Below, piece by piece: positions 21,091 to 24,026 of a stretch of DNA of 64,000 nucleotides. The position numbers and the translations under genes are program-made. The stretch is from Acidobacteriaceae bacterium. GTDB lineage: Bacteria; Acidobacteriota; Terriglobia; Terriglobales; Acidobacteriaceae. Location: positions 1 to 64,000 of the forward strand of contig CAHJWN010000001.1 of NCBI GenBank assembly GCA_903642265.1. Direction: 5' to 3'. Position 1 is the stretch's first letter, and each line of letters starts with the position of its first letter. The notes below the pieces were generated by a model. That model made no database searches and was not told the origin of the DNA. It saw only the letters and a list, made by a program, of their open reading frames with translations.

Positions 21091-21178
21091 TGGTCGAAGA
21101 TGGAGTACCCGGATTTGGAGGGTTAGTTATGGTCGAAGATGGGGTATCCGACTTTTGGGGAGTTAGTTCTGGTCGGCT
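21091..21178 (+). repeat. About 40-bp tandem repeat entering the YceI stop codon
   Basis: Units beginning TGGTCGAAGATGG at 21091 and 21130, and a truncated unit beginning TGGTCGG at 21170, each followed or preceded by GGGAGTTAGTT-like sequence. The right arm of repeat B (GCGAAGATGGGGCACCCGG) is a partial unit too. The third unit overlaps the last codons and stop of the YceI gene, whose stop TAA is read from the GTTAGTT segment on the minus strand. Confidence 0.7.
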
Positions 21179-21744
21179 TCGACGTCGAGGGTGAACTTCA
21201 CTTCATCGCCGAGGATGGGGGCGGTGTACTTCTGGCCGAAGTTGAAGTCGCTGCGCTTGATCATGCCGGTTGCGGAGAATCCGGTAACCAGGCCACCCTT
21301 CATTCCTTTGACCGGGGCAGTGGGGCCATCGACATCGAGCGTTACGGACTTGGTGACGCCGCCAAGGGTCAGATCACCAATGACCTGGAGCTTGCCATTG
21401 GCGCGGGTGACCTGGCTGGACTTGAAGGTCATGGTCGGATATTTTTCAACGTTGAAGAATTCGGGGCTCTTCAGATGCTTGTCGCGAGCGTCGTTGTTGG
21501 TGCTGACGGTGGTGGCATCGATGGTTGTGTTTACGCTGGATTTGGAAAGGTCCTTTTCATCCCAGATAACGGTGCCGGTGATGTTGCTGATGGAACCACG
21601 AACATTGCTCACAGCGGCGTGGCGGATTTCGAAGTTGATCTGGCTGTGGTTCTTGTCGATTGTCCAGGTAGAGGACTGTGCAAGGACGGAGGTACTGGTA
21701 AGGAGCAGGCCGGCGGCAAGAGCGGTAAAGAGTCTACGGTTCAT
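21163..21744 (-). CDS. YceI-family periplasmic protein
   Basis: A 193-residue secreted lipocalin-like protein with a Sec signal peptide (RRLFTALAAGLLLTSTSVLA). The mature start WTIDKNHSQINFEIRHAAVSNVRG is the classic YceI N-terminus, and GDLTLGGVTKSVTLDV and ATGMIKRSDFNFG are the other conserved blocks. YceI proteins bind long isoprenoids or amphiphilic lipids in the periplasm; the exact ligand is unknown. The start at 21744 has an AAAGGACAAAAC ribosome-binding site and puts the signal peptide at the terminus. Confidence 0.92.
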   Translation of the reverse strand: MNRRLFTALAAGLLLTSTSVLAQSSTWTIDKNHSQINFEIRHAAVSNVRGSISNITGTVIWDEKDLSKSSVNTTIDATTVSTNNDARDKHLKSPEFFNVEKYPTMTFKSSQVTRANGKLQVIGDLTLGGVTKSVTLDVDGPTAPVKGMKGGLVTGFSATGMIKRSDFNFGQKYTAPILGDEVKFTLDVEADQN

Positions 21745-21875: not shown

Positions 21876-22589
21876 CTAGTTGAGGTCGAAGAGGAGTATC
21901 TCACTCGTCTGCGTTGCCTGGGAAACATTGGCGACAATTTCAATCTTCTGTTCCTGCTCGATGGCGACCGAGTCGCCAGTTGAAAGCGGTTTGCCGTTGA
22001 CTGAGACTTCGCCGCGGACGACGTGAAGCCAGGCGTGGCGAGAGTCGCCGAGATCATACGCAAGACTGCGGCCGGGTTCGAGCTCGGCTACGGAGACAGT
22101 TGCGTCCTGGTTCAGGGTTGCGGCGCCGGGCGTGGGTGTGGGCGAAGCGAGGAGCTTGAAGCGGTTGTGCTTTTCTTGCGCGTCGAACTTCAGTTGTTCG
22201 TAAGCAGGCGCGGTGCCACGGGTCTTTGGCTCGATCCAGATCTGGAAGAAGTGAACAGGCTCGGTGTCGGAGCCGTTGAACTCACTGTGAACGACGCCGC
22301 TGCCCGCGGACATCTTCTGAATCTCATTCGGGCCGAGGAATTCGGTATGACCCATGCTGTCTTTGTGCGCGAGCTTTCCGCTGAGGACGTAGCTAAGGAT
22401 CTCCATATCGCGGTGGGCGTGGGCACCGAAGCCGCGGCCTTCGGCGACGCGATCCTCATTGATGACGCGAAGGGAGCGGTAGCCCATGTGGGAGGGATCG
22501 CTGTAATTAGCGAAAGAGAAGGTGTGGTGGGAATTGAGCCAGCCGTGGTCGGCATGGCCACGGTCATTGCTTTTGCGGATGGTGAGCAT
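21876..22589 (-). CDS. Pirin-family protein (quercetinase-type bicupin)
   Basis: A 237-residue two-cupin protein similar to E. coli YhaK/YhhW. The metal site is in the N-terminal cupin: GAHAHRDMEILSYVLSG followed by KDSMGH supplies the His/His/His/Glu ligands. The N-terminus (LTIRKSNDRGHADHGWLNSHHTFSF) and SAGSGVVHSEFN are the other family signatures. Some members cleave quercetin; others act as redox-sensing regulators. It lies 34 nt downstream of the MarR gene on the same strand, and a consensus AAGGA precedes the ATG at 22589, so the two are likely co-transcribed from the palindromic operator at 23139. Confidence 0.92.
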   Translation of the reverse strand: MLTIRKSNDRGHADHGWLNSHHTFSFANYSDPSHMGYRSLRVINEDRVAEGRGFGAHAHRDMEILSYVLSGKLAHKDSMGHTEFLGPNEIQKMSAGSGVVHSEFNGSDTEPVHFFQIWIEPKTRGTAPAYEQLKFDAQEKHNRFKLLASPTPTPGAATLNQDATVSVAELEPGRSLAYDLGDSRHAWLHVVRGEVSVNGKPLSTGDSVAIEQEQKIEIVANVSQATQTSEILLFDLN

Positions 22590-22623: not shown

Positions 22624-23118
22624 TCACTGGCCGCCCTGATTCTCTGCAGGTCTTTGGGCATGACCGGATAATGAAGGTGTTGCCGCCTTTGCTGCGAATC
22701 CTATTTTCTTGAGGGCGGCGTAGAGGACACGGCGCTCTTCCTGCGAGAACCCTGCAGAGATGGCTTCGAGGTCGTTCTGGTGTTTTTCGAAGAGAAGAGT
22801 AATAAACTGCCGCCCCTCGCAGGTAAGGCTGACCAGGCGGACGCGTCGATCTTCGGCGCTGAGGCTGCGATGAACGAGGCGACGCTCCTCGAGACGGTCG
22901 ATCGCCGAGGTCATGGAAGCGCTGGCGAGCATCACTTTTTCGCCGATCGCGGAGATGGTGAGCGGCCCCTTGTGGAGGAGAGCTTCAAGGATCATGAAGT
23001 CAGTGAGGCAAAATCCTTGCTGGCCGAAGGACCGTTCGATGTAGGTGCCAATGGAAGCGGAGGCGCGGGCGAGTACGAACCAGAGTTTGGCGGCCGGAAT
23101 CACAGTTTGCTCGGGCAT
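22624..23118 (-). CDS. MarR-family transcriptional regulator
   Basis: A 164-residue winged-helix dimeric repressor. The helix-turn-helix is at about residues 52-76 (TISAIGEKVMLASASMTSAIDRLEERRLV), followed by the wing with the family-defining SAEDRRVRLVSLT. A cysteine near residue 37 (GFCLTDFMI) sits in helix 2 and could be a redox or electrophile sensor, but it does not match the OhrR Cys position exactly. The ATG at 23118 (or TTG at 23121) has AGGTG upstream. The perfect palindrome 21 nt upstream is its likely autoregulatory operator, and the pirin gene downstream is its likely target. Confidence 0.92.
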   Translation of the reverse strand: MPEQTVIPAAKLWFVLARASASIGTYIERSFGQQGFCLTDFMILEALLHKGPLTISAIGEKVMLASASMTSAIDRLEERRLVHRSLSAEDRRVRLVSLTCEGRQFITLLFEKHQNDLEAISAGFSQEERRVLYAALKKIGFAAKAATPSLSGHAQRPAENQGGQ

Positions 23119-23138
23119 CAATCACCTACGACATAAGA

Positions 23139-23156
23139 TATCTCGATGTCGAGATA
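23139..23156. promoter_or_regulatory. Palindromic operator of the marR-pirin operon (MhqR-like box)
   Basis: TATCTCGA-TG-TCGAGATA: perfect 8-bp arms around a 2-nt centre, 21 nt upstream of the MarR start codon. The sequence is very close to the box I remember for Bacillus MhqR (TATCTCGA-AT-TCGAGATA), a MarR-type quinone sensor. It is the most regular inverted repeat in the 227-bp divergent region between marR and the zapB-like gene. Confidence 0.8.
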
Positions 23157-23345
23157 AGATTCAAAACTTACGAGTGGTTGATCATCGAGGGTAAGGGCCG
23201 ATGCCCAGAAGAAGGGAAGCTCGAATTGTTTCGGCAAAGTTGCGAATCAGGTGAATGGAATACGCCGACGATAGCAGGTCAAATGCCGAAGTTAGCGGCA
23301 TAAATGTCTAGTGTTGGCGATCTTCCGGGGCGTTATACTTTAGTC

Positions 23346-23594
23346 ATGAGTGATGCCGCGTTTAGCTTCGACGAGTTCCATGCACTCGAACAAAAGGTTC
23401 TCCGCGCTGTCGAGATCGTGAAGCGTGAGCGTGAGGCGCGTACGGCTGCTGAAGCCGAGGTTGCCACGCTGAAGGCGGAGCTCGCCAAGGTTTCGTCGGA
23501 GGCGGAGGCGCAGGTCGTCACGCTGAACAAGGAACGCGACGCAATCCGTCAGAGAGTCGAAAGCATGCTGTCTCAGATGGATGAGCTTTTGTAA
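23346..23594 (+). CDS. ZapB-like small coiled-coil cell-division protein
   Basis: An 82-residue almost entirely helical protein with a heptad pattern from FDEFHALEQKVLRAVEIVKREREAR to VESMLSQMDELL, matching the size and organisation of ZapB/FtsB-like coiled coils. Being 45 nt upstream of zapA strongly supports a role in FtsZ-ring assembly. The start ATG at 23346 is chosen because TATACT ends 6 nt upstream (leaderless pattern); an in-frame ATG at 23304 would add 14 residues lying across that promoter element. Confidence 0.72.
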   Translation: MSDAAFSFDEFHALEQKVLRAVEIVKREREARTAAEAEVATLKAELAKVSSEAEAQVVTLNKERDAIRQRVESMLSQMDELL

Positions 23595-23639
23595 ATTGTG
23601 AACGTGCTGCAAATCCGTAAGGGACGAGAGGGGTAGAGA

Positions 23640-24026
23640 ATGACCGAAACGCTTGAAGCTTCAGCCGAATTACAGACGCAGGCGCCGGTTGCTCCTACAG
23701 CAGGCGCCCGGGATATCCCTTCCGCGCACGTTGAGATCTACGACCAGATTTACCACTTGCGCGGCGTCGATCCGGCATACATTTCCGCTTTGGCGTCGAT
23801 CGTAGACGAGAAGATGCGTGCTGTATCTGCCCAGGGCGGCACCGTCGACTCGCTCCGTGTGGCGGTGCTGGCGGCACTGAATATAGCGGACGAACTGCAC
23901 GGCTTGCGCAAGAAATACAACGAACTGGCAGGGGCCCAGCAGAACACGCAGAGCGATCTGCGACACCGTGCCGATTCGCTTTCAGGGATGCTGGATGAAG
24001 TCCTCTCGGACCGCCGCGCCGGCTAA
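23640..24026 (+). CDS. zapA: Cell division protein ZapA
   Basis: A 128-residue ZapA homologue that bundles FtsZ filaments. The conserved block VEIYDQIYHLRGVDPAYISALASIVDEKM lies at about residues 30-60, followed by the LRVAVLAALNIADELHGLRKKY helix of the dimer/tetramer coiled coil. The first 27 residues are a variable Ala/Thr-rich extension. GAGGGG precedes the ATG. The gene is followed, after one intervening gene, by the predicted 6S RNA, echoing the zapA-ssrS linkage of proteobacteria. Confidence 0.88.
   Translation: MTETLEASAELQTQAPVAPTAGARDIPSAHVEIYDQIYHLRGVDPAYISALASIVDEKMRAVSAQGGTVDSLRVAVLAALNIADELHGLRKKYNELAGAQQNTQSDLRHRADSLSGMLDEVLSDRRAG

Follow-up and report, generated by a model that had tools for sequence, protein, structure and literature searches.

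A predicted MhqR-like, quinone-responsive switch ahead of a pirin gene in an Acidobacteriaceae bacterium

The marR-pirin locus and its palindrome

The stretch of DNA analyzed here (the window; 64,000 nucleotides of contig CAHJWN010000001.1, from an Acidobacteriaceae bacterium) encodes on its minus strand, in this order, an MhqR-like MarR-family regulator (marR; 22624–23118, 164 aa), a YhhW-type pirin (21876–22589, 237 aa), and a YceI protein recognized by Pfam (yceI; 21163–21744). The coordinates place marR and the pirin gene 34 nt apart, as the initial annotation had stated. Both genes belong to the unit that it proposed, but that unit appears larger than described there: yceI, 131 nt after the pirin gene, is its probable third member, judging from gene order and strand in relatives. 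The regulator matches the MarR family (PF01047, E 1.2e-12). The pirin sequence matches both Pirin (E 1.4e-31) and Pirin_C_2, the “Quercetinase C-terminal cupin domain” (E 3e-24), so that the earlier description of a quercetinase-type bicupin stands, with a Pirin N-terminal cupin and a quercetinase-type C-terminal cupin as in YhhW-type pirins. It aligns end to end with Escherichia coli YhhW (1tq5, 6uts; E about 3e-66), and H57, H59, H101, and E103 are present in this alignment; these three histidines and one glutamate we take to be the metal ligands. There is no settled view of what bacterial pirins do in the cell. Divergent from marR (23346–24026) are genes for a ZapB-like protein (under the Pfam cut-off) and, adjacent to it, ZapA.

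Upstream of marR lies the predicted operator, TATCTCGATGTCGAGATA (23139–23156, minus strand), a perfect 8-2-8 palindrome of the form TATCTCGA-NN-TCGAGATA. An 18-bp palindrome had been noted before at this place, at a distance of 21 nt; the spacer to the marR ATG is 20 nt (23119–23138). The proposed near-identity to the MhqR box is borne out, as the palindrome equals the Staphylococcus aureus MhqR operator, TATCTCGAA-aTCGAaATA, at 15 of 16 compared positions. The S. aureus operator is bound by MhqR in gel shifts and covers positions -6 to +12.

Two sites with at most three mismatches occur in the whole window, against 0.12 expected in shuffled sequence, and one of them is perfect (23139–23156). 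A scan of the assembly (4,643,711 bases, 94.7% complete) returned 33 such sites, against 16 for the backwards control; one has no mismatch (the window site), two have two, and thirty have three. The search for further palindromes that the initial annotation had suggested thus recovers the window site and 32 others with two or three mismatches, and the window palindrome is the sole site with zero or one mismatch in the 4.64-Mb assembly. Mechanically called open frames of 130 aa or more contain 26 of these 32, and a dispersed repeat accounts for five, two of which are also among the 26; three sites (L007, L197, and L201) fall in neither set. The repeat, CCCACATCTCAGAATCGAGATATGGGGCAC, has 14 copies with at most three mismatches (G000 C3:40811, C10:73849, C77:16489, and 11 other places); its core resembles the operator, which accounts for several of the near-matches. 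No second target in this genome was accepted: among the 32, a single locus (L203) has a homologue from the tested MhqR-type gene set nearby (TrxR-type, 39%), and the operator-like site there falls inside an open frame. Since the near-sites lie mostly in open frames or repeat copies, the marR-pirin circuit looks local in this genome.

Across 24 loci, the block TT.TGAATCTTAT.TCGAT.TCGAGATATCT.ATGTCGTAG is common at 70% or more per column, and the 14 columns upstream of it are not. Within this block, TTGAAT (23159–23164, minus strand), which adjoins the palindrome, is a candidate -35 element, and TATCTT (23135–23140, minus strand), which overlaps the palindrome end and stands 18 nt from TTGAAT, is a candidate -10 element. 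The placement of the palindrome between these two elements is a guess, because a consensus promoter scan called no promoter at this region and because the S. aureus operator is situated at -6 to +12.

Conservation of the operator among relatives

Conservation was assessed at 112 MarR homologue loci of Acidobacteriota, taken from L016 and L017, a family search (100 genomes, E up to 1e-15), a class search (299 genomes, E up to 1e-24), and retrieved regions. They were classed by the gene directly downstream: a YhhW-type pirin (27 loci with a MarR of 40% identity or more, and 4 with a more distant one), a long pirin (24), or neither pirin (57). A box was called where at least 13 of 16 positions match TATCTYGANNTCRAGATA within -160 to +24 of the marR start, with start codons picked by script. 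It is present before marR in 22 of 27, 0 of 4, 21 of 24, and 18 of 57 loci, respectively, counts that are partly fitted because the Y/R motif was set after the first relatives had been seen, and in which near-identical loci (L054/L055, L061/L062, and L017/L067) are entered separately. With 300 half-site permutations, the mean numbers of loci in the same class order are 0.10, 0.02, 0.14, and 0.21, and the largest are 6, 3, 11, and 6. Conservation before homologous marR-pirin pairs, which the initial annotation had named as a check, is thus found with both pirin types. Four of the five box-less loci in the 27-locus class stand behind a doxX gene; before doxX, L026 and L075 carry a site of 14/16, and L068 and L070 score 12 and 10. 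The fifth exception (L069) scores 11. The four distant MarRs (L045, L046, L047, and L131; 29–34% identity), each directly followed by a YhhW-type pirin gene, share the pocket residues and lack the box. Outside the taxonomic class searched, three more loci were found: a long pirin with a 15/16 box (L174), yceI with a 15/16 box (L175), and a locus with neither gene and a 13/16 box (L173).

The conserved promoter block provides a second view. A pattern derived from relatives, with one mismatch allowed, finds 20 sites in 19 of the 62 genomes of the genus searched, and its reverse finds none. Eighteen of the 20 head marR-pirin, the window's own included. One of the others (L193) heads marR and a ring-cleaving dioxygenase gene, and the last (L191; G182, C19:140967) heads an LLM-class monooxygenase gene, a candidate second target alongside the marR-pirin site of the same genome. 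Six of the 20 sites are in genomes or places new to the analysis, and four of these six head marR-pirin, among them one (G563) that may be the strain of L016, given the same match percentages.

The form of the palindrome bears on whether it acts as DNA or as RNA. In a motif-blind MAFFT alignment of 12 upstream regions, symmetric changes (C-G to T-A) are seen at half-site positions 4 and 6, which stay complementary in 11 and 8 of the 12 regions; at the outer positions 1 and 3, complementarity holds in just 5, and the first site is lost in L038 and L040. Symmetric changes of this kind would suit RNA pairing and a dimer site alike, and a terminator scan does list the palindrome on the minus strand (seven pairs, four-base loop). 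An RNA hairpin, in a leader or terminator, is nevertheless a very improbable reading: the sequence itself is kept rather than pairing alone, it equals the site bound by S. aureus MhqR, no T run follows it, an Rfam match is absent, and the long-pirin group has a second, staggered copy. By eye, two operator-like sites can be made out in most of the 24 rows of that group, and the second extends to the start codon or close to it (e.g., TTTATCTTGATATCAAGCATCTTTATATCAAGATA in L039). In L032, L033, L035, L039, L083, L088, and others, the staggered sites are about 15 nt apart. A second site that ends at or near the marR ATG leaves little room for a ribosome-binding site, and the marR mRNA of this group is perhaps leaderless.

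The extent of the unit can be judged from the same loci, most of which have 1.5 kb of flank, so that absent neighbors may be cut off. On the same strand, yceI follows the pirin gene in 17 of the 27 loci of the YhhW-type class, and at L064 and L073, which each carry a 13/16 box, it follows marR with no pirin gene. No separate operator was recognized before yceI, and the pirin-yceI gap is poorly conserved; in several relatives (L054–L062) it contains an inverted repeat such as GTGACCGGC...GTCGGTCAC, which is not recognizable in the window. An arrangement in which the palindrome served marR only, with the pirin gene and yceI adjacent to it under promoters of their own, would suit the marR-pirin gap of 204–212 nt in L054, L055, L061, and L062 and the 131 nt between pirin and yceI in the window, a gap that holds an inverted repeat in some relatives. 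We regard such an arrangement as improbable given the 34-nt marR-pirin gap in the window, the 4-nt overlap in several relatives, and the finding that in most loci pirin remains next to a boxed marR, with other neighbors varying. Co-transcription of yceI with marR-pirin is probable from these patterns.

The regulator, its pocket, and its sister loci

The best match of the window MarR in the PDB is S. aureus MhqR (SaMhqR; 9qdr/9smz, E 1e-13), followed by 2rdp (2e-12); a long-pirin MarR likewise has SaMhqR as its best match (4.6e-15), with an ST1710-type chain next (2.4e-14). In SaMhqR, the quinone pocket consists of F11, F39, E43, and H111, as given in PMC12893000. Three of these residues are identical in the window protein and W replaces F11. 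Among the 112 homologues, F39, E43, and H111 are each retained in 111, and the F11 position is W in 26 of 27 (YhhW-type pirin), 24 of 24 (long pirin), and 50 of 57 (neither) loci, and Y in all four of the distant group. In four relatives, 30 of 70 MarR-domain matches were examined as loci; seven belong to the MhqR-like family by BLAST and carry W-F-E/D-H, and F, E, and H occur together in none of the other 23. The pocket is retained in box-less MarRs too (the box is found in 0 of the 4 distant pirin-linked loci and is absent from 39 of the 57 without pirin), so that pocket and box are not strictly coupled.

The DNA-reading region, which in MhqR comprises the loop IASSSI with S68 and Y69 and the wing residues D88, K89, R90, V91, and Y92, is partly different. 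S64, S66, D88, R90, and V91 are kept in the window protein, and the remaining positions are replaced (S65 by A, S68 by T, Y69 by S, K89 by R, and Y92 by R); for SaMhqR, Y92 and K89 are reported to be essential. Identity to Firmicutes MhqR-type proteins is 31–36% (SaMhqR 31%, a Bacillus velezensis homologue 34%, a Priestia protein 36%), below the level of more than 40% reported for Firmicutes MhqR homologues. Because of this lower identity and the differing part of the recognition region, the window regulator is filed as MhqR-like, an acidobacterial relative of MhqR rather than a proven MhqR; its likeness rests on the best PDB match, the pocket residues, and the MhqR-regulon-type neighbors of its sister regulators. 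A quinone sensor of the YodB/QsrR type (DUF24/HxlR) was rejected: Pfam gives MarR with no HxlR match, and the cysteines lie only inside the HTH region and wing, in contrast to the conserved N-terminal sensing cysteine (Cys5/Cys6) of YodB/QsrR. Paralogues were also set aside: PF01047 matches five further proteins of this genome, of which two are MarR proteins without the pocket residues and three look like DeoR- or ROK-type proteins.

In a phylogenetic tree, read for acidobacterial rows only and omitting L043 (too short), a clade of 52 rows (support 100/99) comprises 27 YhhW-pirin-linked MarRs, 23 others, and two long-branch PDB rows. Regulators L020 and L023, beside a dioxygenase and an esterase, nest with the pirin-linked L021 and L069 (99/96). 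The tree puts 2rdp and ST1710 within the family, each at the end of a very long branch, and leaves SaMhqR outside; these placements are unsure.

Counted over the 112 loci as matches to representative proteins in either orientation, neighbors of the sister regulators include a glyoxalase-fold dioxygenase of ring-cleaving type (12), an Abhydrolase_2 (MhqD-type) esterase (11), DoxX (15), an LLM monooxygenase (11), and a nitroreductase (1); in L069, marR, pirin, and dioxygenase genes are consecutive. This exchange of partners under one type of regulator suggests that the MhqR-like MarRs share one signal. In six loci (L041, L044, L110, L116, L123, and L124), sister MarRs are divergent from a small membrane gene, mostly with NmrA beyond it, and palindromes of the form TATATTGAYRTCAATATA lie between the two. 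A Pfam match is absent for this small gene, and its name, DoxX-like, is our own reading.

Related arrangements were seen among plasmid-borne homologues (40 of 57 records listed). The Priestia plasmid protein has the lowest E-value among the matches listed, and its gene carries TATCTTGATATCAAGATA at -39. The B. velezensis homologue, next among the matches listed, adjoins motB-motA, which we take to be the place of mhqR in B. subtilis; no box was found upstream of it at this presumed mhqR locus. An S. epidermidis plasmid homologue (L172; 71% to the SaMhqR fragment) belongs to an mhqRED-like cluster, with genes for a ring-cleaving dioxygenase, a VOC protein, and an alpha/beta hydrolase after marR; two copies of TATCTCGAATTCGAAATA (103 and 606) stand there, one at -39 of marR and one before the dioxygenase gene. 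A fused MarR-pirin query against plasmids of other phyla returned 619 records, one of which spans at least 80% of the query; none of the 25 matches listed does so.

A predicted quinone switch and its known counterparts

Taken with the linkage of the conserved palindrome to marR-pirin, these comparisons make it likely that the window holds an autorepressing, MhqR-like, quinone-responsive switch on marR-pirin and probably yceI, in which the binding, promoter, inducer, and pirin substrate are the predicted parts. A MarR dimer would bind the palindrome just 5' of its own gene and repress marR and pirin, and probably yceI with them. Entry of a quinone or a quinol-like aromatic compound into the pocket formed by W13', F41, E45, and H113 would disturb the recognition helix and release the repressor, and the pirin, a putative YhhW-type metal cupin, would then help to remove the compound.

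In a variant of this model, the same autorepression would serve to sense another aromatic, such as a phenolic acid, a salicylate-like compound, or, as the initial annotation had also proposed, a flavonoid: the pocket position is common to salicylate- and urate-binding members of the MarR family, lone pocket residues are found in AbsC, HucR, Rv2887, and ST1710, and a quercetinase activity of YhhW was reported by Adams and Jia, as cited in PMC5031710. We consider this variant unlikely, as the regulator matches SaMhqR in F, E, and H and in having an aromatic residue at the F11 position, the sister regulators adjoin MhqR-regulon-type genes, and the E. coli pirins are induced by hydroquinone. In E. 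coli, hydroquinone induces the yhhW and yhaK promoters via YhaJ, and the inducer accumulates in a yhaK mutant (PMC5031710); by analogy, this circuit provides independent precedent for the control of pirins by quinols.

The occurrence of a conserved MhqR-type operator and pocket before two types of pirin gene suggests that pirins handle quinones or quinols, and raises the question of whether the inducer of the MarR is also the substrate of the pirin. In broader terms, a soil bacterium would keep ahead of its pirin gene a switch resembling the toxic-quinone sensor of Bacillus and Staphylococcus, in an arrangement that recurs in relatives. That an MhqR-like family of local quinone sensors has radiated in Acidobacteriota, with one operator code and exchangeable outputs, is an evenly balanced proposition; those outputs would be the YhhW-type pirin with yceI, the long pirin, doxX, the dioxygenase with the esterase, the LLM monooxygenase, and NmrA. 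On that proposition, bacterial pirins and YceI would count by their regulation among the proteins of quinone stress, in an independent parallel to YhaJ and the E. coli pirins. In the open-access literature, with subscription papers mostly outside the scope, MhqR and pirin were not found together, nor was a paper on a MarR-pirin operon, Acidobacteria included, recognized by title (or abstract start) among the papers listed.

Three known systems may be compared with the window. With MhqR of S. aureus and B. subtilis (mhqRED; azoR2, mhqNOP, mhqED, mhqA), it shares the MarR fold, F39, E43, and H111, a 9-9 type operator before the operon, and, as predicted here, autoregulation of an operon with a degradative enzyme; an MhqD-type esterase, ring-cleaving dioxygenase, DoxX, and nitroreductase accompany the acidobacterial sister regulators. 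It differs in its low identity, in W at F11, in the replacement of S65, S68, Y69, and Y92, in its predicted target (pirin-yceI), and in its phylum. The E. coli YhaJ regulon (yhhW, yhaK, and yqjF) likewise includes pirin genes that are hydroquinone-induced, but YhaJ is a LysR-type activator and the pirin is not in an operon with its regulator. With YhhW itself, the window pirin has in common end-to-end homology, two cupin domains, and the four putative metal ligands, and it differs in being encoded in one unit with a MarR gene and in having an activity that is putative.
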